A DNA stretch of 10,449 nt. Origin: Candidatus Altarchaeum sp. GTDB taxonomy: Archaea; Altiarchaeota; Altiarchaeia; Altiarchaeales; Altiarchaeaceae. The position numbers were made by a program, and so were the translations under genes. Under the pieces are notes generated by a model. The model saw only the letters and a program-made list of their open reading frames with translations. It searched no databases and was not told the DNA's origin. Location: the NCBI GenBank assembly GCA_018260755.1, contig JAGTWP010000047.1, forward strand, positions 1-10,449, given 5' to 3'. Of this stretch, positions 1-10,449 are shown in pieces. Within the stretch, counting starts at the first letter, position 1. Each line of letters starts with the position of its first letter.

Positions 1-15
1 TTTTTAATACCTGCG

Positions 16-105
16 ATTTTCAAACTTGTTTGAAAATGCACGAACAAAGTGAGTGTAAAATTTCAAAAAATTTATTCGTAATTTTTTGGGTGGCTGAATA
101 GTTAC
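16..105 (+). repeat. Left copy of edge repeat with two hairpins
   Basis: This copy matches the reverse complement of 10357-10449. From 39 to 105 it aligns with 62 of 67 columns identical: four substitutions and one single-base gap. It reads outside to inside as follows. A perfect hairpin lies at 16-37 (arms ATTTTCAAAC and GTTTGAAAAT, 2-nt loop). A conserved core begins CACGAAC at 39. A second hairpin lies at 64-88 (arms CAAAAAATT and AATTTTTTG, 7-nt loop). The end is the exactly conserved GGGTGGCTGAATAGTTAC at 88-105. Similarity stops just after 105. No open frame is seen. It lies 113 bp upstream of mqnA in the direction of transcription. It could be the end of a mobile or MITE-like element, or a structured leader; the sequence does not decide. 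Confidence 0.85.
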
Positions 106-218: not shown

Positions 219-1052
219 ATGCCTAAGCATTTAGTAATAGGAAGCACACCTTTTAGAAATATTGTATTTCCATATTATTTCATTGAAAAAAATTTTGGAA
301 ATTTTAAAGCTCATCTTAAATTTTACTCCGCATTTCCACCGCAACTCGGAGAGATGGTTTTGAACAACGAGATAGATATTGCACCTATATCTTCAATTAT
401 CTATGCCAAGCATCCTGAAAATTTTCTCATATTGCCGGATTTTTCAATAAGTGCAAAAGGAAAAACAGGAAGTATAATTTTAATCTCAAAGAAACATTTT
501 GAAGAAATTTCGTCTGTTTGTCTGCCTTCAAATTCCGCTACTTCGGTTGCATTGCTGAAAATAATTCTGAAAGTAAAAGGGATAGATGCAAAATTTAAAA
601 TTTCTAATTCATTAGAATTTGATAACTGCGATGCTGCTTTATTTATAGGTGATGACGGAATTGCGGCAAGGGAAAAATTTAGTTTAGATCGCACAAGGTT
701 GTATAGAAACAATGTAATTGATTTAGGGGAGGAATGGAATAAAATAACTGGGAAGGGCATGGTTTATGCGTTGTGGCTCATAAGCAAGAAAAGTGCAGAA
801 GAAAAATACAAAGAAATAAAATGGTTTTCGGAATTGCTAACGACTTCGCTCAATTATTCATACAAAAATTTTGAGGAGGTTATAGAACAGATAAAAGGAA
901 ATTTAAAAAGGGAAAGTGTTCGATTTCACATTTCGTCTTTATCATACAATTTTGGAAAAGAGCAAACAGATGCATTGTTAAATTTTTACGAGTATGCGAA
1001 AAGGTACGAGATAATTTCGGATGTTCCGAAGTTAAATTTTTTGAAAATTTAA
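219..1052 (+). CDS. mqnA: Chorismate dehydratase MqnA (menaquinone, futalosine pathway)
   Basis: MqnA removes water from chorismate to give 3-[(1-carboxyvinyl)oxy]benzoate, the first step of the futalosine route to menaquinone; it is cytosolic. The 277-residue protein has the size and periplasmic-binding-protein-like pattern of the MqnA/MqnD family. Recognisable family blocks are EIDIAPISSIIYAKHPENF near residues 52-70, LPDFSISAKGKTGSIILISK near 73-92, SATSVALLKIIL near 107-118, DAALFIGDDG near 138-147, and DLGEEWNKITGKGMVYALW near 168-186. These match MqnA better than MqnD. No signal peptide is seen, so it is an enzyme rather than a transport binding protein. It is the first gene of a + strand block, 30 bp ahead of the UbiD-family gene. 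The start is the ATG after CTTACAAA, with a TATA box at leaderless spacing. Confidence 0.88.
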   Translation: MPKHLVIGSTPFRNIVFPYYFIEKNFGNFKAHLKFYSAFPPQLGEMVLNNEIDIAPISSIIYAKHPENFLILPDFSISAKGKTGSIILISKKHFEEISSVCLPSNSATSVALLKIILKVKGIDAKFKISNSLEFDNCDAALFIGDDGIAAREKFSLDRTRLYRNNVIDLGEEWNKITGKGMVYALWLISKKSAEEKYKEIKWFSELLTTSLNYSYKNFEEVIEQIKGNLKRESVRFHISSLSYNFGKEQTDALLNFYEYAKRYEIISDVPKLNFLKI

Positions 1053-1082
1053 TTAACTTTGTTCAAATAAAGAAAATTTAAA

Positions 1083-2552
1083 ATGTCTTACGATGATTTA
1101 AGGGAATTTATCGATGAACTTGAAAAAAAAAATTTAATTGAGCACATAAAAGAAGAGGTCAATTGCGAGCTTGAAATTTCAGAGATAACCGCCCGTGTGT
1201 GTAGAAAATACAGAGAAAACAGCAAGGCATTGTTTTTTGAGAATGTTAAAAATAACGGAAAAATTTCCGAAATTCCTGTTGTTACAAACATCTTTGGCTC
1301 AACAGAAAGGATGAAATTAGCATTAGGGCAGGAAAATTTTGAGTCATTTGGAGATAAATTTTTAAAATTTCTTAAATTTAAGCCGAGTGGATTTTTTGAA
1401 AAACTGCAAGTCCTGAAGGAATTAAATAATATTTCTTCGTATTTTCCGAAAATTGTTAAAACAGGAAAATGTAAGGAAGTAATAATAAATGAAGATAAGG
1501 TTGATTTATTTAAATTTCCTATTTTAAAATTATGGCCAAATGATGGCGGAAGATTTATAACCCTGCCAATGGTATTTACAAAAGACCCCGAAACAGGAAT
1601 GAGAAATGTCGGAATGTATCGTATGCAGGTCTTTGATAAAAATACAACAGGAATGCATTGGCACATACATAAGGATGGGGCTGAACATTATAGAAAGGCA
1701 GAAAAATTTAATAAAAAGCTTGAAGTTGCAGTAGTTATTGGATGCGAGCCAGCTAGCATGTATGCGGCAACAGCGCCGCTTCCACAAAATTTTGATGAAA
1801 TTTTATTTGCTGGCTTGTTAAGAGAAAAGGCAATAAGCATGGTTAAATGCGAAACGATTGATATGAAAGTTCCTGCAAATGCGGAAATTGTGCTTGAGGG
1901 TTATGTCAACCCCAATGAAAGAAGGTTAGAAGGTCCTTTTGGAGACCATACGGGCTATTATTCTGCTATTGATTATTATCCTGTATTTCACATAACATGC
2001 ATAACACATAAACAAAAGCCAATTTATGCAGCAACAGTTACGGGAATTCCGCCAATGGAGGATGCTTATATAGGAAAGGCAACTGAGCGATTGTTTCTTC
2101 CTTTTATAAAGACAATCATTCCTGAAATTAAAGACATCAATCTTCCTATTGAAGGAGTGTTTCATAACTTATGTATTGTTTCAATAAACAAAAAATATCC
2201 GGGACATGCAAAAAAGGTTATGTTTGCACTTTGGGGATTAGGGCAAATGATGTTTACAAAAATAATTATTGTTGTTGATGCGGATGTGAATGTTCAAAAT
2301 ATTGAAGATGTTCTATGGGTTGTTGGAAGCAGGGTTGAGCCAAAAAGAGACATAATTACTATAGAGAATGCTCCTGCCGATGCTCTTGAAAACGCATCTG
2401 AATTTAAATTTTTATCTTCAAAGCTTGGAATAGATGCAACCAGGAAGTGGAAAGAAGAAGTTAATAAAGAGTTAAATTTAGATCTCGCTGAAATGAGTGA
2501 AGAAGTAAAGAAAAAGGTTGATGAAAAATGGAATAAATTCGGATTTAATTGA
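1083..2552 (+). CDS. UbiD-family prenylated-FMN decarboxylase, probably MqnL-like
   Basis: UbiD-family enzymes use prenylated FMN (made by a UbiX partner) and a metal for non-oxidative decarboxylation of aromatic or conjugated acids. The 489-residue length is typical. Visible blocks are LKLWPNDGGRFITLP near 148-162, the cofactor/metal region NVGMYRMQVFDKNTTGMHWH at 175-194, the hallmark EGPFGDHTGYYS at 283-294 with a catalytic-type Glu, and KLGIDATRKW near 447-456. The neighbouring mqnA makes the MqnL role likely, meaning decarboxylation of a prenylated 1,4-dihydroxy-6-naphthoate-type intermediate. That assignment is inferred from context, because UbiD substrates cannot be told from motifs alone. 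No ubiX or prenyltransferase lies in the window. The start ATG follows GAAAATTTAAA with no Shine-Dalgarno. A full-length frame with no breaks is seen. Confidence 0.87.
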   Translation: MSYDDLREFIDELEKKNLIEHIKEEVNCELEISEITARVCRKYRENSKALFFENVKNNGKISEIPVVTNIFGSTERMKLALGQENFESFGDKFLKFLKFKPSGFFEKLQVLKELNNISSYFPKIVKTGKCKEVIINEDKVDLFKFPILKLWPNDGGRFITLPMVFTKDPETGMRNVGMYRMQVFDKNTTGMHWHIHKDGAEHYRKAEKFNKKLEVAVVIGCEPASMYAATAPLPQNFDEILFAGLLREKAISMVKCETIDMKVPANAEIVLEGYVNPNERRLEGPFGDHTGYYSAIDYYPVFHITCITHKQKPIYAATVTGIPPMEDAYIGKATERLFLPFIKTIIPEIKDINLPIEGVFHNLCIVSINKKYPGHAKKVMFALWGLGQMMFTKIIIVVDADVNVQNIEDVLWVVGSRVEPKRDIITIENAPADALENASEFKFLSSKLGIDATRKWKEEVNKELNLDLAEMSEEVKKKVDEKWNKFGFN

Positions 2553-2553
2553 T

Positions 2554-3789
2554 ATGGGCAAAAAAATCGGCATAATCGGACTGAATGCAAAAGCAGCAGC
2601 ACAATCGGCAAAAAGAGCTGGCTATGATGTGTTTTTAGCAACATATTTTTCTGATGCGGATACAGCAAGCATTACAAAAAATTTCTTCCCGATGCAAAAA
2701 GAAAAATTTGAGCCCGATTTAAAAGAATATTCTATAAACACATTGGTTGACTTTGCAACAGAAAAATTTAAAGGCAAAGTTAATAATGTCATTTTAACCT
2801 CAAAAATCGGGGATAGTGCAAAGGCAGTAAAGATAATAGAAAAAAAATTTAAAATAATAGGAAACAATTCGGAAAATGTCCGAAGAGCAAAAAGTTGGGA
2901 ATTTCTCAAAAAAGTGCTTGCCAAACATTCAATACTTTATCCAAAGACAACCGTTGTTAATGCAAATAAAATAAATGAAATAAATGGAATAGATAAAATA
3001 GATGAAATAAATTTAAATTTTCCCTGTGTCATTAAAGCAATGGACATTGATAACGGAAAATGCCCCCCTAACAAAATTTTTTCTTTTGCCGAATTAGAAA
3101 ATTTAATCACGAGAAGCAAAGTGCAGAGAGAAATTTTAATTCAGGAATTTATTGATGGAATTCCTTTAAGCTGCTCTGTTCTTTCAGATGGAAGGCATGC
3201 AGTTGCTATATCTGTCAATCAGCAGTTAATTGGTGAAAAATTTCTCGGAGGATGCGGATTAAAGTATTGCGGCAATATTGTGCCTTATGAAGGAAATAGA
3301 GCGTTAATTCAAAATATCAAAAAAATTTCAGAATTCATAATCTCTTACCTTTCTATTGTCGGTTCAAACGGAATTGATTATGTTGTAAACAAAGATAAAA
3401 TTTACTTTATGGAGGTAAATCCAAGAATTCAGGACACAATAGAAAATGTGGAAAAATATTTAGGTATAAATTTAGTTGAAGAGCACATAAAAGCATGCAA
3501 TAATTCAGATGAAAAATTTAATGAAAAATTTAATGAAAAATTTAATTTCATAGAGGAAAGAAAAAAGGGGAAATTTTACGGAAAAGGAATAATTTATGCA
3601 GAAAAGGATGTAAAGGTTAAAAATTTAGCTCCATTAAATATAGGAGATGTGCCAAATTCAGGGTGTCTTATAAAAAAGAACGAGCCAATTTGCTGTATCT
3701 ATGAAGAAGGAGAAAGCAACGCAGATGTTCTTGAGAAAATGAAAAAGGGTACAAATCAGATATACACAAATTCACTAAAATTTTTCTAA
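2554..3789 (+). CDS. ATP-grasp carboligase of the COG2232 type, substrate unknown
   Basis: ATP-grasp enzymes form a carboxylate-amine or carboxylate-thiol bond through an acyl phosphate. The 411-residue protein opens with KKIGIIGLNAKAAAQSAKRAGYDVFLATYF, of which the pattern GxNxxxxAxSAKRAGYxV is the start I associate with COG2232 'predicted ATP-dependent carboligase'. ATP-grasp landmarks follow: a beta-strand CVIKAMD, the hinge QEFIDGIPLSCSVLSDG, SNGIDYVV, and the metal-binding FMEVNPRIQDTIE. The ATG at 2554 is chosen because it is one base after the UbiD stop and immediately precedes the conserved strand. An upstream TTG at 2518 would add 12 residues with no family likeness. It probably forms one operon with mqnA and the UbiD gene, but no menaquinone step needs an ATP-grasp ligase. 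Two low-complexity in-frame repeats (2965-3009 and 3511-3546) interrupt it. Its 3' end overlaps cobD by 15 bp tail to tail. Confidence 0.78.
   Translation: MGKKIGIIGLNAKAAAQSAKRAGYDVFLATYFSDADTASITKNFFPMQKEKFEPDLKEYSINTLVDFATEKFKGKVNNVILTSKIGDSAKAVKIIEKKFKIIGNNSENVRRAKSWEFLKKVLAKHSILYPKTTVVNANKINEINGIDKIDEINLNFPCVIKAMDIDNGKCPPNKIFSFAELENLITRSKVQREILIQEFIDGIPLSCSVLSDGRHAVAISVNQQLIGEKFLGGCGLKYCGNIVPYEGNRALIQNIKKISEFIISYLSIVGSNGIDYVVNKDKIYFMEVNPRIQDTIENVEKYLGINLVEEHIKACNNSDEKFNEKFNEKFNFIEERKKGKFYGKGIIYAEKDVKVKNLAPLNIGDVPNSGCLIKKNEPICCIYEEGESNADVLEKMKKGTNQIYTNSLKFF
2965..3009 (+). repeat. Degenerate 9-nt tandem repeat inside the ATP-grasp gene
   Basis: Five consecutive 9-nt units of the form AAT-(A/G)AA-ATA code for NKI NEI NGI DKI DEI. 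The repeat adds a hydrophilic, low-complexity loop just before the conserved strand CVIKAMD, so it is probably a tolerated surface insertion. The frame is kept. The units differ by single bases, so this is an old or slowly drifting expansion. Confidence 0.7.
3511..3546 (+). repeat. Three exact 12-nt tandem repeats (EKFN x3) in the ATP-grasp gene
   Basis: GAAAAATTTAAT occurs three times in a row without a mismatch, coding for EKFNEKFNEKFN. It lies after the catalytic ATP-grasp core, in a lysine- and glutamate-rich linker before the C-terminal domain. Exact copies suggest recent replication slippage. A multiple of three bases keeps the frame. Confidence 0.9.
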
Positions 3790-4851
3790 TTCATTCAAGA
3801 CATCCGTAAATTTATTTATAAATTTTTCGTTATCTTTGCGAGAGCGAATGCATATTCTTATATAATTATTTCCCAAATTTCTAAAATTCCCGCAGTCCCT
3901 GACAAATACATTTTTTTCAAAGAGTTTTTGCACAAAAGCAAACGAGTTGAAAGGAATTTTGATTAACAAAAAATTCGTTACGGAATTATAAATTTTTACA
4001 TTATCAATTTTTGTGAGCTCATTGCTCATAAATTTCTTTTCCTTGTCAAAAAATTTATATGTTCTTTTTTTAAATTTTTCAATTGTTTGTCTGTTGTATT
4101 TATTCAAAATTTCGGATATCGTTTCGGAGGCAAGTGAGTTTATATTCCACGGATTGAGGTGGGCATTTAACTTTTCTATTATATTTTTGTCTGCAACTGC
4201 ACATCCGAGCCGTAATCCGGGCAGTCCAAAAAATTTTGAAAATGAACGCAAAACAATGAAATTTTTACCTTCAACTTCATGAATGAATGTTTGTTTTTCT
4301 TCATCATTAACGAATTCCATAAATGATTCATCAACCACAACAATGGAAAAATTTTGACAAATTTTATAAATTTCTTCTTTCTTGAGTAGTAAATTTCCAG
4401 TCGGGTTATTCGGATTGCATAAAAACAAGATGTCATTTTTAAATTTTTTTGCTTTATCAGCAGGAAATTTAAAATTCTCTCCTTCCAAATTCAGGAAATG
4501 TATTTTTCCGTTTATCGCATTCATCGCTCTTTCGTATTCGGAAAATGTCGGAACGGGAATTAATGCACTTTTCGGGTTAAATGTATGAGCAATAAGATAA
4601 ATCAGTTCGGATGTTCCGTTGCCAACAATAATATTTTCAGGATTTACTTTTAAATAACCTGCAAGGGATTTTGTGCTCTTTTTATTTTTTGTGTCGGGAT
4701 AATAAAAAACCGAATCAATATTTTTTAAGAGTAAATTTTTAAGTCCGCTGTATTTTAAGGGATTAATATTTGCACTGAAATCAAGGATTTTGTTTTTACT
4801 CTTTCCTGATTTTGCTTTTATAAATCCCAAACTTCCGTGTTCTGAATTCAT
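3775..4851 (-). CDS. cobD: L-threonine-O-3-phosphate decarboxylase CobD (PLP, HisC-like fold)
   Basis: CobD decarboxylates L-threonine-O-phosphate to (R)-1-amino-2-propanol O-phosphate, the arm that CbiB joins to adenosylcobyric acid. The protein is a fold-type I PLP enzyme of the HisC subgroup, about 358 residues. Positions are counted from a GTG at 4857, two codons upstream of the ATG used here. DFSANINPL at 26-34 is the N-terminal signature usual in CobD, CNPNNPTG lies at 147-154, VVDESFMEF at 174-182, and RSFSKFFGLPGLRLG at 204-218 carries the PLP lysine K208. HisC was considered, but the DFSANINP block and the neighbouring cbiB favour CobD. ATG 4851 is preferred; GTG 4857 would overlap the stop of a short upstream ORF. 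It is the last gene of the minus-strand block. Confidence 0.82.
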   Translation of the reverse strand: MNSEHGSLGFIKAKSGKSKNKILDFSANINPLKYSGLKNLLLKNIDSVFYYPDTKNKKSTKSLAGYLKVNPENIIVGNGTSELIYLIAHTFNPKSALIPVPTFSEYERAMNAINGKIHFLNLEGENFKFPADKAKKFKNDILFLCNPNNPTGNLLLKKEEIYKICQNFSIVVVDESFMEFVNDEEKQTFIHEVEGKNFIVLRSFSKFFGLPGLRLGCAVADKNIIEKLNAHLNPWNINSLASETISEILNKYNRQTIEKFKKRTYKFFDKEKKFMSNELTKIDNVKIYNSVTNFLLIKIPFNSFAFVQKLFEKNVFVRDCGNFRNLGNNYIRICIRSRKDNEKFINKFTDVLNELEKF

Positions 4852-4853
4852 CT

Positions 4854-4970
4854 TCACAACACATAATCATCGCCAGACATCAAAACCTCAACTACAACGC
4901 ACGCATCTATGTGATGCATCGACAAATTTTGCCTTCTTTTTTCCAATTTATATTTGGTTTTATTTTTCAT
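4854..4970 (-). pseudogene. 38-residue ORF, possible remnant of a PIN-domain (VapC-like) gene
   Basis: The 130-bp gap between cbiB and cobD holds a short minus-strand ORF from ATG 4970 to TGA 4854. Its second half reads MHHIDACVVVEVLMSGDD, which resembles the start of PIN-domain toxins (hydrophobic strand, then Asp, then a V-E helix). The frame then ends after a few residues, whereas an intact PIN protein has about 130. The DNA at about 4854-4925 has roughly 44% G+C by hand count, visibly richer than its neighbours, which suits a fragment of foreign origin. The stop is 2 nt before the cobD ATG, so it could instead be a small translated leader coupled to cobD. The PIN likeness rests on about 18 residues and is weak. 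Confidence 0.25.
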
Positions 4971-4981
4971 TCTTTTTGTTT

Positions 4982-5995
4982 TTATAAATACCCATAGATA
5001 ATTTTAATTACAACCCCAATTACCATCATAAAAACAGATACAAGAAAACAAATATTCACACATTTCTTTATTAAATTTTTTTCATACCTTTTCTCATACC
5101 TTTTTTCATACCTTTTTTCATTATCTAATTCGTTGTCTAATTCATTACCTAATGAACAATCATCACCTATTTCTTCTCTGCACTTTTTCTTACCGTTCGG
5201 ATATGAATAACACCCCCCTATTTTTATCCCCAATGCCCCTGCCATCGCCGCCTCACTTATTCCGGCATTAGGCGATTCGTGTTTTCTTCCGTCTCTGAGC
5301 ATTATTTGAAATGCCTTTCTTCCATTATTTTGTAAAATTGATGCAGAGATGCAAATCAAAATTCCTGTTATTCGTGCGGGAATGAAATTTAAAACATCGT
5401 CAAATTTTGCCGAAAACCATCCAAAATTTATATATCTTTGATTCTTGTAACCAACCATTGCATCAAGTGTATTCGCTGCCCTATAACCAATCGCCATTAC
5501 GGGACCTCCGATAATCAGATAAAACAAAGGAGCAACGACGCTGTCATTTAAATTTTCTGCTGTACTTTCTATCGTTGACTTTATGATGTGCTCTTCATCC
5601 AAATTTTTTGTATCCCTTGTAACAATCTTTGCTAAATTTTTTCTCGCAGCGACTAATGAATTTCCCTTTAATTCATCAAATACATCATCCGCCGATTTGA
5701 TTAATACCTTTAATGTAAATGAAATATATGCAACATAAACCGAAACGAGCAATCCGAGCAAATCATTTATTACCTTTGAAAATTCTACCACCAAATAAGC
5801 AACACACATAGTTACGCCAATGACAATGAAAGTCATTATCGCACCATTAATTCGCCTTATTTTAGCATCCTTTCCTTTGTTAAGTATGTTTTCCAATTTC
5901 TCATTCATCCATCCGATTACCCTTACAGGATGGAAAGAATTTTGTGGCTGTCCGAATATCAAATCCGCAAGATAAGAAAAAATAAGAATAAGCAT
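4982..5995 (-). CDS. cbiB: Adenosylcobinamide-phosphate synthase CbiB
   Basis: CbiB is an integral membrane enzyme that joins aminopropanol phosphate to adenosylcobyric acid, giving adenosylcobinamide phosphate. The 337-residue protein begins LILIFSYLADLIFGQPQNSFHPVRVIGWM, of which the DLxxGxPxxxxHPVRxIG pattern is the classic CbiB N-terminus. Other family blocks are TRDTKNLDEEHIIKSTIEST and ESTAENLNDSVVAPLFYLIIGGP (with about residues 140-165), AANTLDAMVGYKNQRYINFGWFSAKFDDVLNFIPARITG, and SPNAGISEAAMAGALGIKIGG. Several hydrophobic helices are evident, including one at the extreme C-terminus. A charged low-complexity insertion (NELDNELDNEKRYEKRYE) sits just before the last helix and comes from 12-nt DNA repeats. 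It starts 22 nt after the btuD stop. Its product and that of cobD feed the same reaction. Confidence 0.93.
   Translation of the reverse strand: MLILIFSYLADLIFGQPQNSFHPVRVIGWMNEKLENILNKGKDAKIRRINGAIMTFIVIGVTMCVAYLVVEFSKVINDLLGLLVSVYVAYISFTLKVLIKSADDVFDELKGNSLVAARKNLAKIVTRDTKNLDEEHIIKSTIESTAENLNDSVVAPLFYLIIGGPVMAIGYRAANTLDAMVGYKNQRYINFGWFSAKFDDVLNFIPARITGILICISASILQNNGRKAFQIMLRDGRKHESPNAGISEAAMAGALGIKIGGCYSYPNGKKKCREEIGDDCSLGNELDNELDNEKRYEKRYEKRYEKNLIKKCVNICFLVSVFMMVIGVVIKIIYGYL
5081..5147 (-). repeat. Two adjacent 12-nt tandem repeats in cbiB
   Basis: On the + strand, TTCATACCTTTT occurs in three near-exact units at 5081-5116 (the middle one starts with C), coding on the minus strand for repeated KRYE. 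Next to it, TCTAATTCGTTG and TCTAATTCATTA at 5124-5147 code for repeated LDNE. Both have a 12-nt period and keep the frame. They sit in a hydrophilic stretch before the final membrane helix of CbiB. Confidence 0.85.
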
Positions 5996-6017
5996 TTTGT
6001 ATGAGCTGTTTCATTCA

Positions 6018-6776
6018 TTAAATTTTAGGAACAATATATAAAAATTTAGCCCTCTTAACCTCAACATCAATTCCATAGACATTTTTTATATTTTCTTCGG
6101 TTAATACATTTTCAGGACTTCCGGTTGCAAAAATTTTTCCGTTGTGCATCAACATCAAGGCATCGCAAAACATCGCCGCCAAATTTAAATCATGCAAAGT
6201 ACAAATAACCATCATTCCCTGTTTTGTAAGTTGCTTAAATATTTTTAATGTCTCAACCTGATATTTTATGTCAAGTTGTGATGTCGGCTCGTCGGCAAAT
6301 AAAATTTTCGGTTCCTGTGCCAGCGCTTTTGCTATTACCACCCGCTGTTTTTCTCCGCCTGAAATTTCAGTAATTGATTTATCCTTAAATTTTAAGGTAT
6401 CGGTAAATTTTAATGCGTTTTCAACAATTTCCCTGTCTTTCGAACCTTCCTTTTGGAGCCTTTTAAGATATGGAATTCTTCCCAACATCACATATTCAAA
6501 CACAGAAAACGGCTGAAACGATGAATTTTGCGGGATATGAGCAATGACTTTTGCGATTTCCGCATAAGAAAGTTCCACTATGTTTTTATCTCCGATAAAA
6601 ATTTCACCTTTTGCAGGCTTTAAAATTTTGCTCATAAGTTTCAGCAAAGTTGTCTTTCCCGCTCCGTTAGGACCGACAATTCCATAAAATTTTCCCTCCT
6701 CTAATTTAAATGTTATTCCATCAATAATTTTTGTATTGTTGTATTTAAAATGCAATGTATTAGCCGAAATTTTCAT
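6018..6776 (-). CDS. btuD: Corrinoid ABC transporter ATP-binding protein (BtuD/FepC family)
   Basis: This cytoplasmic ATPase drives a type II ABC importer with the neighbouring permease. Residue positions here count from a TTG at 6785; the ATG at 6776 (residue 4 of that frame) is taken as the true start, giving 252 residues. Visible motifs are Walker A GPNGAGKTT at 38-46, Q-loop PQNSSFQPF near 85-93, signature ISGGEKQR at 141-148 (Glu in place of the usual Gln after SGG), Walker B ILFADEPTS at 161-169, D-loop SQLD, and switch His in TLHD near 196-199. The family also includes iron-siderophore and heme importers. Corrinoid is inferred from cbiB, cobD and cbiZ next door. It follows btuC by 26 nt in the same operon. 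Confidence 0.82.
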   Translation of the reverse strand: MKISANTLHFKYNNTKIIDGITFKLEEGKFYGIVGPNGAGKTTLLKLMSKILKPAKGEIFIGDKNIVELSYAEIAKVIAHIPQNSSFQPFSVFEYVMLGRIPYLKRLQKEGSKDREIVENALKFTDTLKFKDKSITEISGGEKQRVVIAKALAQEPKILFADEPTSQLDIKYQVETLKIFKQLTKQGMMVICTLHDLNLAAMFCDALMLMHNGKIFATGSPENVLTEENIKNVYGIDVEVKRAKFLYIVPKI

Positions 6777-6802
6777 TTTGTGCAAAATTTTATGTAAAAA
6801 TT

Positions 6803-7825
6803 TTATGTGAAATATTCGTATTTCTTTTTTCTTAATAAATATATAAACAACGGTGCGCCTACCATTGCTGTAATTGCCCCCACCGGAATTTCAATCGGCA
6901 TTGCAATTGTTCTCGCAAGTGTATCACAAACAAGCATAAATATTCCCCCGCTCACTGCCGAAAACGGTATTAAAATTTTGTGGTTTGTGCCGAAGATGAT
7001 TCTGACGACATGCGGAATTACAAGTCCGACAAATCCAATAATTCCTGCAACAGATACTGCAACCGATGTTAACAATGTTGCCAGCAAAATTAAAATTTTC
7101 TTTAAATTTTCCGTATCTATTCCGAGATGTTTTGCCTCTTCTTCTCCAAATAATATGGCATTCATATCTCTTGAGAAAAAATAAAAGCTCAATGTGCAAA
7201 CAATAACAATCGGAAATAAAATTCGGATATCGTCCCATGCACTATGCGCAAAACTTCCGAACAACCAGGACAAAATCCCGTGCAATTTTTCTGATTCTGT
7301 GAGAGTCATTATAATCATAATGAGTGCTGAAAACAAAGTTCCTACGATAATTCCCGAAAGGAGTAATCTTAATATAGACGTTGTGTTTCTCACCCTTGCA
7401 ACATAGTATGTGATTAGCACCGCAAAAATTCCTCCAAAAAATGCAAAGACCGAAACGGAAGAAAGTCCGAAAAATAAGAAATCAACATAAAAAAATATAC
7501 CTAAAAATGTTGCAATTACTACGCCGAATGCCGCCCCGCCTGATATTCCCAAAAGGTATGGCTCTACCAAAGGATTCCTAAAAATTGCCTGCAAAACAAC
7601 ACCCGAAAGCGCAAGAGATATTCCGACAAGGATGTCTGCAATTATCCTCGGAAGACGAACACTGAATATTATAAAATTTTCCGTATCGTTTCCGTGTCCT
7701 GTTAATATATTCCAAACCTTTTCTATGGGATATTCAGCAGCCCCAACCGATAATGAAATCAAAACAACAAGCACAAGGATAAAAATCAGAACTATTCCGG
7801 AGGTAAACAGGGAAATTTTTTTCAT
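6803..7825 (-). CDS. btuC: Corrinoid ABC transporter permease (BtuC/FecCD family)
   Basis: This 340-residue polytopic membrane protein forms the channel of a type II ABC importer. It has the expected length and roughly ten hydrophobic segments. Family blocks include LPRIIADILVGISLALSGVV near 53-72, QAIFRNPLVEPYLLGISGGA just after it, LGIDTENLKKI (the coupling-helix region that contacts the ATPase), and AGIIGFVGLVIPHVVRIIFG. Vitamin B12 and iron-siderophore permeases share all of these, so the corrinoid role is inferred from the gene neighbourhood. No substrate-binding protein (BtuF) is encoded in the window. It is the first gene after a 105-bp gap holding a TATA-like element and a palindrome, so it likely has its own promoter. 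No Shine-Dalgarno precedes the ATG. Confidence 0.82.
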   Translation of the reverse strand: MKKISLFTSGIVLIFILVLVVLISLSVGAAEYPIEKVWNILTGHGNDTENFIIFSVRLPRIIADILVGISLALSGVVLQAIFRNPLVEPYLLGISGGAAFGVVIATFLGIFFYVDFLFFGLSSVSVFAFFGGIFAVLITYYVARVRNTTSILRLLLSGIIVGTLFSALIMIIMTLTESEKLHGILSWLFGSFAHSAWDDIRILFPIVIVCTLSFYFFSRDMNAILFGEEEAKHLGIDTENLKKILILLATLLTSVAVSVAGIIGFVGLVIPHVVRIIFGTNHKILIPFSAVSGGIFMLVCDTLARTIAMPIEIPVGAITAMVGAPLFIYLLRKKKYEYFT

Positions 7826-7870
7826 TTTAAAAGTGAGATTATTTTGAATTTGGTGTTCGTATTTGGATTC

Positions 7871-7880
7871 TATTATAAGT
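7871..7880 (-). promoter_or_regulatory. Putative TATA box upstream of btuC
   Basis: On the minus strand the stretch reads ACTTATAATA, a good archaeal TATA-box match, in the only sizeable gap of the minus-strand block (7826-7930). Its centre is about 50 nt from the btuC ATG, so transcription would start near 7850 and leave a leader of about 25 nt. This would make btuC-btuD-cbiB-cobD a transcription unit able to run separately from cbiZ-dph6-asn. Confidence 0.4.
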
Positions 7881-7899
7881 TATACCATATCGCGATTCG

Positions 7900-7919
7900 G
7901 TCTCTATTGTAATAGACAC
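7900..7919. promoter_or_regulatory. Operator-like palindrome upstream of btuC
   Basis: GTCTCTATTGTAATAGACAC is an inverted repeat with perfect inner arms TCTATT and AATAGA around GT, extended outward with one mismatched pair. It lies about 20 bp upstream of the putative btuC TATA box, where an archaeal transcription regulator could bind. It could also be the end of the preceding transcript, although it lacks the T-tract expected of a terminator. Function is inferred only. Confidence 0.3.
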
Positions 7920-7930
7920 TGAATTATTTT

Positions 7931-8950
7931 TTATGGAAAACATTTTGCTCCATGTTTAAAATTTTTGTATTTCATTGTCATTCTGTTGTTATTTGTCCCG
8001 CAAATCCTGCAAAACAACTTTTCATGCCTAATTCCAGCTCCGCATCCTTTACATTTTATTTCATCTTCTTTTGCTCCCTTAACATTTCCAAAAATTTCCT
8101 TAAAAATTTCATAATAATAAAGATGCTCCTTATCCCTTATAATTACTTGGTCTTCTTTTTCATATTTTAATTTCTTTTGTTCAAAATCAGCATTTTTAAT
8201 TTCATCCTCAAATATATTTGTAAGCAATGTCGTTCCGCTCCCATATTCAATAGGTGTCTTTTTTCGCAATACAAATTCTTCAGGAAGTAAATTTAGATAT
8301 GCCTTTCTTAAAATCCATTTTCCAACACCTTTTTTTATTTTCATTTCATCGTCAATGTTCATTGCATAATTTTTTACTTCATCTGAAAGATATGGGCTAA
8401 AAATTTTCATGCCAAAAAACCTTCCGAAATCGTTTGAAGAAAAGTGCATATTTTTCCACATCTTTTTTGCATAGTTCTCTCTTTCTTCCTTCTCCATTTT
8501 TATTAAAAAGTCATACCCAAAGAACAATTCATCCGCACCATCACCAGTCATCACACTACTTGCATATTTCTTTGCAAATTTTAGGATTGTATATATCGCG
8601 ACGCTATTCCTGATTTCCATCGGGTCAAAGACGGCTAAAATTTTTATTGTTTCTCTTAAATTTTTTGTTAAATTTTCCTCATCAATATTCAAAACATAAT
8701 GTTCTATACCTAAAATTTTACACAACCTTTTAGCGTATTTTGCATCAGGAGCATTTCCGAATTTCAGGGTAAATGCCTTAATTTTAGTATTTTTTGCAGC
8801 AACATAAGATAATATTGAGGTATCAAGTCCTGCTGACAATAAAATTCCTTCACAACCATCGTTTATATTTCTCTTTACTTCGTTTTCCAATAACTCCCTT
8901 AATTTTAATGTTTCGGTTTCAATTCCCATTTTTTTATATCTAAAATCCAT
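7931..8950 (-). CDS. Asparagine-synthetase-like PP-loop ATPase with C-terminal zinc ribbon
   Basis: The 339-residue protein carries the synthetase half of AsnB but lacks the N-terminal glutaminase. The PP-loop is LLSAGLDTS at 37-45 (usual SGGLDSS, so the second Gly and a Ser are changed), followed by the AsnB-type GDGADELFFGY at 136-146 and KWILRKAYLNLLPEEFVLRKK at 211-231. It ends with a zinc ribbon C-x2-C-x10-C-x2-C at C300, C303, C314 and C317. Enzymes of this fold adenylate a carboxylate and transfer an amine; without a glutaminase the nitrogen must come from free ammonia, a partner or another amine. The substrate is unknown. The frame overlaps dph6 by 46 nt from ATG 8950; ATG 8929 would cut this to 25 nt and remains possible. 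True asparagine synthetase is less likely given the missing domain. Confidence 0.7.
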   Translation of the reverse strand: MDFRYKKMGIETETLKLRELLENEVKRNINDGCEGILLSAGLDTSILSYVAAKNTKIKAFTLKFGNAPDAKYAKRLCKILGIEHYVLNIDEENLTKNLRETIKILAVFDPMEIRNSVAIYTILKFAKKYASSVMTGDGADELFFGYDFLIKMEKEERENYAKKMWKNMHFSSNDFGRFFGMKIFSPYLSDEVKNYAMNIDDEMKIKKGVGKWILRKAYLNLLPEEFVLRKKTPIEYGSGTTLLTNIFEDEIKNADFEQKKLKYEKEDQVIIRDKEHLYYYEIFKEIFGNVKGAKEDEIKCKGCGAGIRHEKLFCRICGTNNNRMTMKYKNFKHGAKCFP

Positions 8951-9594
8951 TTATTCGAATAAATTTTAATATGTTCGGTAAAATTTTGGACATCGCTTTC
9001 AAGTATTTCAAGTCGTTTTTTAAATATTGGTCCATCTATAACAAGTGTGTGAAATTCTCCGTTTTCGCCGCATAAATCCACATTTATCCTTTTCGCATCT
9101 TCAATAAACCCGCTTATTGAATCCTTTTTTATAATTCTTCCTAATAAAATTTTTGCTTTGTCAATCGTGCATACAACAATTGCTTCAAAGCCATCTGATA
9201 CAAATTTATCCAAAATTTCTTCCCTCTTTCTTTTCCACAACGGTTCATAATACTTTATGTTTAATTCCGCACTTTTTTTCTTTATCCAGTCTAAATGTTC
9301 TTCCAGATCAATATCTCCTGCAATCATTCCCGCAATTCCTTTTTCCTTCAATTTTAAAACTTCCGAATTAAAGTCATTTTCGTAATTCTTCCATGATGTA
9401 ACCTTTTGAATTAAGGGAATTCCAATTGCTTCTGCCTGTGACTTTATTATTTCTCTGTTTATTCCGTGACTTCTTCCGTCAACGGCAAAATTTAAAAGAA
9501 ATAGTATATCCATGTTGTTTTTCATCGCCTCATAACACGCCAGACAACTATCTTTTCCTCCGCTCCACGAACAAAACCACTTATCTGATTCCAT
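8905..9594 (-). CDS. dph6: Diphthine--ammonia ligase family protein (Dph6-like)
   Basis: Dph6 amidates diphthine on elongation factor 2 with ATP and ammonia, the last step of diphthamide formation. The 229-residue protein has the family's usual archaeal length. SGGKDS at 11-16 is the PP-loop, GDIDLEEHLDW lies at 93-103, EPLWKRKREEIL at 117-128, and GENGEFHTLVIDGPIF at 176-191 is the hallmark of the family, distinguishing it from other PP-loop enzymes. It overlaps the end of cbiZ by 14 nt (the ATG lies inside the last cbiZ codons) and its own end overlaps the next gene, so the three are probably translationally coupled. Its place within a corrinoid set is unexpected: it may simply be the housekeeping EF2 enzyme, or a paralogue with another amidation target. 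Confidence 0.82.
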   Translation of the reverse strand: MESDKWFCSWSGGKDSCLACYEAMKNNMDILFLLNFAVDGRSHGINREIIKSQAEAIGIPLIQKVTSWKNYENDFNSEVLKLKEKGIAGMIAGDIDLEEHLDWIKKKSAELNIKYYEPLWKRKREEILDKFVSDGFEAIVVCTIDKAKILLGRIIKKDSISGFIEDAKRINVDLCGENGEFHTLVIDGPIFKKRLEILESDVQNFTEHIKIYSNKWILDIKKWELKPKH

Positions 9595-10330
9595 TTTGCT
9601 CGAAAATTGCTTCTTTTACTGCTGATGTAGTTGCCTTTGCCATCAATTCGCCAAATTTTGCGTGTCCGCCAGTATAACTTATTTTTTGTTGGCATCCACT
9701 AACAATTATTGCATTATCTGTTCCTGTTCCGGTTGCAAAAATTTTTGGATTATATGAACTTTTTATATGTAAATCCTCAAATGCTATCGTTTTTGCCTCA
9801 GTTATGGTTATCAAACTCCTTGCCATTGCCCCATCTGTTAAAAAGGCATTTGTGAGAATTATTATGTTGACAGTTCCATGTTTGATATCTTCAAATTTTT
9901 CTTCGTCTACCTCAATGCTTCCCGGTTTATCAACCCCTATTCTTTGGGCGTTTGACTTCACTCCTGCTGTGACACAAGCACAAATTTTGATATTTTTATA
10001 TTCTTCGGTTTTGATAGAAATATTGTCCATATCTGCACCCGTGAATAACATTGCAGTATCATCGGGATAAATTTTCAGTTCTTTACATATCTGTGTTTTA
10101 TGCTGTTCTATTTTCAACGAGTGACTGGTCCCCCACAATTCCGGCGGATCATAATGATTTCCTACAAATTTTGCTATTTTAAACCCTTCGAATGTACTTA
10201 ATACCCTTCTATTCTTTCCAAAAGAAACGAGAAAGGTCTTTACGCCAACCTCATCATAAAAATGATAAAATATTCTCGCATCAATCTCATCATTTGCTTC
10301 TATGCCCAACGATATTTTTCTGCTTTTCAT
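9581..10330 (-). CDS. cbiZ: Adenosylcobinamide amidohydrolase CbiZ
   Basis: CbiZ cleaves the aminopropanol side chain from adenosylcobinamide (in some bacteria also from pseudo-B12) to give adenosylcobyric acid, allowing salvage and remodelling of imported corrinoids. The 249-residue protein shows the family blocks TAGVKSNAQRIG at 121-132, LTNAFLTDGAMARSLITITE at 159-178, ATGTGTDNAIIV at 199-210 and GGHAKFGELM at 221-230. No signal peptide or membrane segment is seen, so it acts in the cytosol. It is the first gene of the minus-strand block and begins 26 nt inside the right edge repeat. The start ATG lies in the last of three CATTTTAAT repeats and has no Shine-Dalgarno. CbiB and CobD, encoded downstream, carry out the reverse reassembly. 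Confidence 0.9.
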   Translation of the reverse strand: MKSRKISLGIEANDEIDARIFYHFYDEVGVKTFLVSFGKNRRVLSTFEGFKIAKFVGNHYDPPELWGTSHSLKIEQHKTQICKELKIYPDDTAMLFTGADMDNISIKTEEYKNIKICACVTAGVKSNAQRIGVDKPGSIEVDEEKFEDIKHGTVNIIILTNAFLTDGAMARSLITITEAKTIAFEDLHIKSSYNPKIFATGTGTDNAIIVSGCQQKISYTGGHAKFGELMAKATTSAVKEAIFEQNGIR

Positions 10331-10356: not shown

Positions 10357-10449
10357 GTAACTATTCAGCCACCCAAAAAATTACGAGTAAATTTTTTAAT
10401 TTTTACGCTCACTTCGTTCGTGTATTTTAAAATCTTTGAGATTTTAAAA
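10357..10449 (-). repeat. Right copy of edge repeat with two hairpins
   Basis: This is the inverted partner of 16-105. Its inner end is GTAACTATTCAGCCACCC at 10357-10374 (exactly conserved). The inner hairpin has arms AAAAAATT at 10375-10382 and AATTTTTT at 10390-10397 around a 7-nt loop. The core ends with TTCGTTCGTG near 10422. The outer hairpin at 10425-10449 has perfect 11-bp arms TTTTAAAATCT and AGATTTTAAAA around a 3-nt loop. The outer stem differs in sequence from that of the left copy but still pairs fully. The window ends at the last base of this hairpin. Relative to cbiZ it has the same orientation that the left copy has relative to mqnA. Confidence 0.85.

Follow-up and report, generated by a model that had tools for sequence, protein, structure and literature searches.

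The window analysed here, 10,449 bp in length, is a complete contig (G000:C3) that ends within copies of one repeat at both sides (Table 1); G000 denotes the genome to which it belongs, and G001–G003 are three further genomes of the same genus. The stretch between the two copies (219–10330) carries cofactor genes and resembles a cobamide salvage region, encoding MqnA-like, UbiD, ATP-grasp, aminotransferase (which may be CobD-like) and CbiB proteins, an ABC ATPase with a FecCD permease, and asparagine-synthase-like, diphthamide-synthase-like and CbiZ proteins. A preliminary description of the sequence had pointed out that the two edge copies are alike, and this was borne out by 91% identity over query positions 14–90; the two outer palindromes that it reported are also present, at 16–37 and at 10449–10425 (TTTTAAAATCTCAAAGATTTTAAAA). 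A search of the source genome for more copies, which it had named beforehand as a test, gave 62 matches in G000 together with copies in the three same-genus genomes.

Table 1. Features of the two repeat copies at the edges of the window.
Feature	Position	Strand	Remarks
MITE copy 1, 3' part	1..105	+	truncated by contig start; matches 3' half of full-length copies
Variable palindrome, hairpin A (ATTTTCAAA CTTG TTTGAAAAT); whole, ATTTTCAAACTTGTTTGAAAAT	16..37	+	same hairpin at A site in most full-length copies
Tag hairpin TGCA-CGAACAAAGTGAG-TGTA, core 41–53	37..57	+	core with 1 mismatch; structure from covariation
Right terminal inverted repeat GGGTGGCTGAATAGTTAC of IS66-type MITE	88..105	+	same end on IS66 transposase elements
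MITE copy 2, 3' part	10357..10449	-	truncated by contig end
Terminal inverted repeat of copy 2	10357..10374	-	26 bp upstream of cbiZ start codon
Tag hairpin TACA-CGAACGAAGTGAG-CGTA, core 10408–10420	10404..10424	-	exact core; covariation
Variable palindrome, hairpin B (TTTTAAAATCT CAA AGATTTTAAAA + flank)	10424..10449	-	B site of full-length copies

The copies of this 'edge repeat' are therefore real, but their location at the edges only reflects that the window is a whole contig broken within the repeat at both ends. Several further G000 contigs likewise begin or end inside the repeat, as judged from match coordinates against contig ends, and the contig ends are assembly breaks within it. That both copies sit at contig ends could also be taken to mean that they are an assembly artefact, namely duplicated contig ends. 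We find this hardly credible: dozens of internal copies have distinct flanks with matching 8-bp duplications, which refutes the artefact for the repeat itself and leaves it valid only for the position at the window edges. One copy (L058, G000:C7:8507–8555) has a left flank like that of the copy in L045 and a right flank like that of the copy in L031 (C54), a combination produced either by recombination between copies or by an assembly misjoin.

The edge repeat represents the right-hand end of a non-autonomous MITE of the IS66 family (ISBst12-like), an assignment that is well supported by its 8-bp duplications, by transposase elements with the same ends and by its likeness to ISDge4. The element has inverted ends, GTAACTATTCAG..CTGAATAGTTAC, encodes no gene and measures 82–410 bp in full copies; when all copies were extracted with their flanks, the commonest full-length form was ~244 bp, running from GTAACTATTCAGAGGGTAC to GGGTGGCTGAATAGTTAC. 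The preliminary description had proposed a DNA hairpin with GGGTGGCTGAATAGTTAC as its fixed end, which pointed in the right direction, since GGGTGGCTGAATAGTTAC is constant at one end of the copies and constitutes the terminal inverted repeat. An exact 8-bp direct repeat flanks 30 of the 54 full copies in the four same-genus genomes and other lengths are hardly seen, while permuted flanks reach an 8-bp match with at most one mismatch in 4.8% of cases; the left partner of the target duplication for the copy ending at 88–105 lies outside the assembled sequence. The left end occurs 45, 61, 33 and 25 times in G000, G001, G002 and G003, respectively (reversed control, 0), and the right end is found in many bacteria and archaea, several of these occurrences being small elements with 8-bp duplications.

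Elements of ~1.5 kb with the same ends, 8-bp duplications and one IS66-type transposase gene (PF03050/PF13005/PF20042) were identified in Methanomicrobiales (L108) and Cryomorphaceae (L162), and a decayed IS66 copy in G001 (L202, 516–2240) has the asymmetric ends of the MITE, GTAACTATTCAGAGG..AAAAGGGTGGCTGAATAGTTAC. In support of this assignment, ISDge4, an experimentally active member of the ISBst12 group, carries GTAACTGCTCAGCA at its ends, together with an 8-bp repeat (PMC12898284), so that ends near this sequence and the length of the duplication are common to our element and to that group with its MITEs. Full-length relatives in IS66/ISBst12 have a single-ORF transposase with DUF6444, zf-IS66 and DDE_Tnp_IS66 domains, whereas the element described here is gene-free, short and of high copy number, and is filled with hairpin units of another repeat family. 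A MITE usually, though not by strict requirement, shares its genome with an intact autonomous partner. The four same-genus genomes (65–87% complete) yielded no intact IS66 transposase with the MITE ends: PF03050 gave no match in G000 (85% complete), the G001 copy is decayed and the G002 copy is of another type. The MITE, which would be moved in trans by IS66 transposases, is in itself ordinary.

Inside the MITE, most full-length copies carry two modules in series, hairpin A followed by ACACGAACGAAGTGAGCG and then hairpin B followed by ACACGAACGAAGTGAGCG. The left window copy has A beside its 3' end because it lacks the B unit, while the right copy shows B because anything earlier, including the place of A, falls beyond the contig end. 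Consequently, the compensatory change that had been claimed between the two edge copies fails, as the stems compared were two different modules and not alleles of one stem. The two sites each occur empty and filled, and other copies of the MITE lack both units, have just one of them (A or B), or bear an additional, inverted unit within the tag. At the B site, AATTTCAAAAATGAAATTTTTGAA-type stems replace AATTTTAAAATCTCAAAGATTTTAAAAT in G001 copies and in two G000 copies, and hence stems do differ at one place with pairing kept. The second hairpin with a 7-nt loop (~64–88) noted earlier is indeed found in both copies; its stem is weak and AT-rich, and the tag hairpin at 37–57 is better supported. 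Folding of single copies gave a modest advantage only over shuffled sequences (z −1.9 and −2.3), but palindrome and tag recur together far more often than chance would allow, as detailed below. In the copies with an extra unit (L034 and L055, on C67 and C13 of G000), unit A has an inverted palindromic unit inserted into its tag (GAAGT^GAGCG), which produces a nested fold, and the junction CACGAACGAAGTCCGCT occurs also in C62 and C68 of G003.

Modules A and B belong to a second, larger family, in which a variable palindrome is followed by a constant tag. We assign a probability of about 0.8 to the two layers taken together, that is, an IS66-type MITE and, nested within it, units of palindrome and tag. 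Tag 1 is present in 67, 32, 129 and 103 copies in G000, G001, G002 and G003, and its sister, tag 2, in 48, 145, 68 and 175 copies (reversed control, 0–4 per strand), so that the genus holds hundreds of tags, both inside the MITE and elsewhere, and frequently in tandem. In most of 151 tag contexts, which were drawn from listed places rather than at random from all copies, the palindrome ends 2–5 nt ahead of the tag core. A stem score of at least 8 was found beside the tag in 75% of these contexts, compared with 1.4% after Markov resampling and 8% at random places in the same loci, with the reservation that the palindromes are AT-rich and chance therefore adds some pairing; a strong adjacent stem is missing at about a quarter of the tags. 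The 151 contexts include 73 distinct stems. A larger context set has 97, with 1015 of 1077 positions Watson–Crick paired, and the notion of a changing stem with conserved pairing, which did not hold for the edge pair, thus holds in this larger family. Differences between near-identical stems are two-sided in 52 cases and one-sided in 39. A single loop (e.g. GCAGA or CTTG) recurs with many arms, and a few stems are shared by both tags.

Within its class, the exact tag-2 core is practically confined to the genus Altarchaeum. Eight matches obtained when IMG/VR was scanned with the tag had no adjacent AT palindromes and were judged to be due to chance, and a literature search for the tag string returned unrelated papers only. 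A GC-richer genome of the same class (G019, L328) has a tag CGAGCGAAGTGAGG among CCCCTTCGGGG-type hairpins, hinting at the same arrangement in another base composition. A further repeat in G003, TTTTCNGCG..AGTTTTCTTTTTTTCTAAAAAAGAAAAGTGC, has a unit at one and the same point, there with two different stems (L258 and L267, on C97 and C2). Mismatches in the stems of L244–L323 are strand-asymmetric, T.T accounting for 18 and A.A for 2.

The tag appears to be a hairpin in its own right. Its core, CGARCGAAGYGAG, can be written as C-G, G.A, A.G, R-Y and C-G around a GAA loop (C-GA-R-C[GAA]G-Y-GA-G), and the tag of the left window copy pairs as T-A, G.T, C-G, A-T, C-G, tandem G.A/A.G, A-T and C-G around an AAA triloop. 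For all 99 distinct Altarchaeum tags, used instead of a hand-picked set, 76.5% of positions are paired compared with 68.8% after shuffling (0/500) and 14–51% when the frame is slid; for 27 sites in other archaea the corresponding values are 74.4%, 56.0% (0/500) and 29–41%. Two-sided changes in the tag thus exceed both shuffled and slid controls, and while the shuffle test can be inflated by relatedness of the sequences, which was not fully controlled, the slide test argues against relatedness being the whole cause of the signal. The inner pair is G-C in 16 and A-T in 9 of those 27 sites, and in 394 archaeal genomes it is, among the matches listed, nearly always A..T or G..C.

It should be noted that the short Altarchaeum tag alone is predicted to form no stable fold with either DNA or RNA parameters, and its fold consequently rests on covariation; the parameters used give no credit for the special stability of a GNA loop with tandem G.A pairs. 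Genomes of two other archaeal families often have the core at the tip of a stem that is longer and variable, for example GCATTGC-core-GCAATGC or CACTAC-core-GTAGTG, and with both parameter sets these extended forms fold into a stem and a 2x2 internal loop topped by two pairs and a triloop. In these two families (f47 and f28; L334–L345), CGAGCGAAGCGAG caps variable stems and is often followed by TGCATCC, with as many as 17 copies in a genome (control, 0); this is possibly a separate conserved hairpin family. GCGAAGC is described in PMC4686876 as a very stable DNA mini-hairpin with a Tm of about 78 °C and nuclease resistance (Hirao et al., 1994). The core R-C[GAA]G-Y with its GNA triloop is common to d(GCGAAGC), as presented there, and to our tag, which differs in that tandem G.A pairs extend it and that it serves as a repeat tag in the genome. 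A lower stability is expected for the A-T version of the core, and the tag would represent a stable GCGAAGC-type mini-hairpin put to use as a genomic tag.

A covarying hairpin would also suit a repeat that is transcribed and whose stems are paired since the RNA fold works, for instance in regulation or in mRNA leaders. The units are mostly intergenic (4 of 25 within ORFs, compared with 69% coding) and tag 2 contains GAGGTGA, a possible Shine–Dalgarno match. However, few units in ORFs are equally expected of selfish DNA, and the units lie on both strands, are nested within a transposon and point either way with respect to genes. There is no clear wobble signal, with G.T and A.C numbering 15 and 6 in the stems and 7 and 9 in the tag core. 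An Rfam scan of the window and 16 loci returned nothing relevant at gathering score, and a tRNA scan gave none. We consider an RNA function improbable; the structured RNA suggested at the outset left no RNA signature.

Tag-2 repeats occur both empty (61 sampled, in two main forms) and filled, at the same point (CGAACG^AAG or CGAGC^AAG), and the units filling it have several different stems. Different copies of the MITE, and likewise different tag-2 repeats, have their units at the same points, which lie beside A-runs; no target duplication accompanies the units except possibly one A. The MITE site CTGCG^AAAATTTC is without homology to the tag. In tag 2 the insertion point falls inside the GAA loop, a position that would fit a single-strand process, and insertion there could alternatively represent gene conversion between similar tags.

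Short tagged palindromes of the GTAG/CGTC REP type are intergenic, occur singly or in arrays and undergo complementary stem changes, and the CGTC REPs have no known transposase (PMC3733652). Our units resemble them in having a constant tag at one end of the palindrome, an intergenic location, tandem and mixed arrays, and complementary stem changes, and they might therefore be ordinary REP elements that depend on a RAYT-type Y1 transposase for their movement. Against this, the tag is itself a conserved hairpin of ~21 nt (TACA/TCTC-CGAACGAAGTGAG-CGTA/GTGA) and not a GTAG or CGTC tetranucleotide, each genome holds many stems, and the host is an archaeon. The Y1 (HUH) tyrosine transposase domain PF01797 gave no match in G000–G003 (65–87% complete), while control genomes were positive. 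A REP/RAYT system in the strict sense is thus an improbable explanation, and the two-hairpin unit is new and REP-like. A single IS110 transposase gene was found, in G003 only, and none in other tag-bearing archaea.

We tentatively propose that each unit inserts as a piece and duplicates no more of its target than one A, and that the units would spread by a process acting on folded single-stranded DNA and recognising the hairpin shape together with the tag. The stem arms would drift, and their complementarity would be kept by template-switch (quasi-palindrome) repair, perhaps aided by selection for the fold. This scheme is possible, at less than even odds. A bolder version, which we regard as unlikely, is that the two-hairpin unit is a self-contained miniature archaeal mobile element recognised by shape rather than sequence, marked by the tandem-G.A/GAA mini-hairpin, with any perfect palindrome as its other half; an enzyme would insert it with no target duplication, the loop of its own tag hairpin being one of the targets.

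The preliminary description had held that pairing was kept and that the fold is hence under selection. This does not follow, because template switching, a documented process (PMC8794818, PMC7202029), can restore pairing by mutation; it keeps hairpin stems perfect while both arms change, as inferred for RNA genes (PMC8794818), and can explain joint arm changes here without selection. The whole family might consist of passive palindromes kept perfect by replication template switching, with tags spread by gene conversion and microhomology and the fold recognised by nothing, a reading that we also hold to be possible yet short of probable. The excess of two-sided over one-sided stem differences, the retention of one loop with many different arms and the inverted insertion in tag 1 of L034 and L055, which resembles a template-switch product, are all in line with it. 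Left unexplained by mutation alone are the covarying tag in distant archaea and insertion into unrelated sequence at the MITE site, as template switching accounts for neither the tag nor such insertions. Loop inversion, moreover, is an expected by-product of template switching, and none was seen between copies with the same arms. Our hairpins have perfect stems with both arms changing in common with those described as maintained by template switching (PMC8794818), and differ in that template switching is here only proposed and loop inversion is not seen.

More generally, pairwise comparison of repeat copies can imitate compensatory evolution when the modules compared differ. In the family described here, stem sequences are replaced whereas pairing and a structured tag are retained, and this makes testable a long-standing question, namely whether such hairpins owe their persistence to selection for shape or to template-switch repair. 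The tag hairpin recurs, with variable extended stems, in other archaeal families, and hence the motif may matter beyond Altarchaeum.
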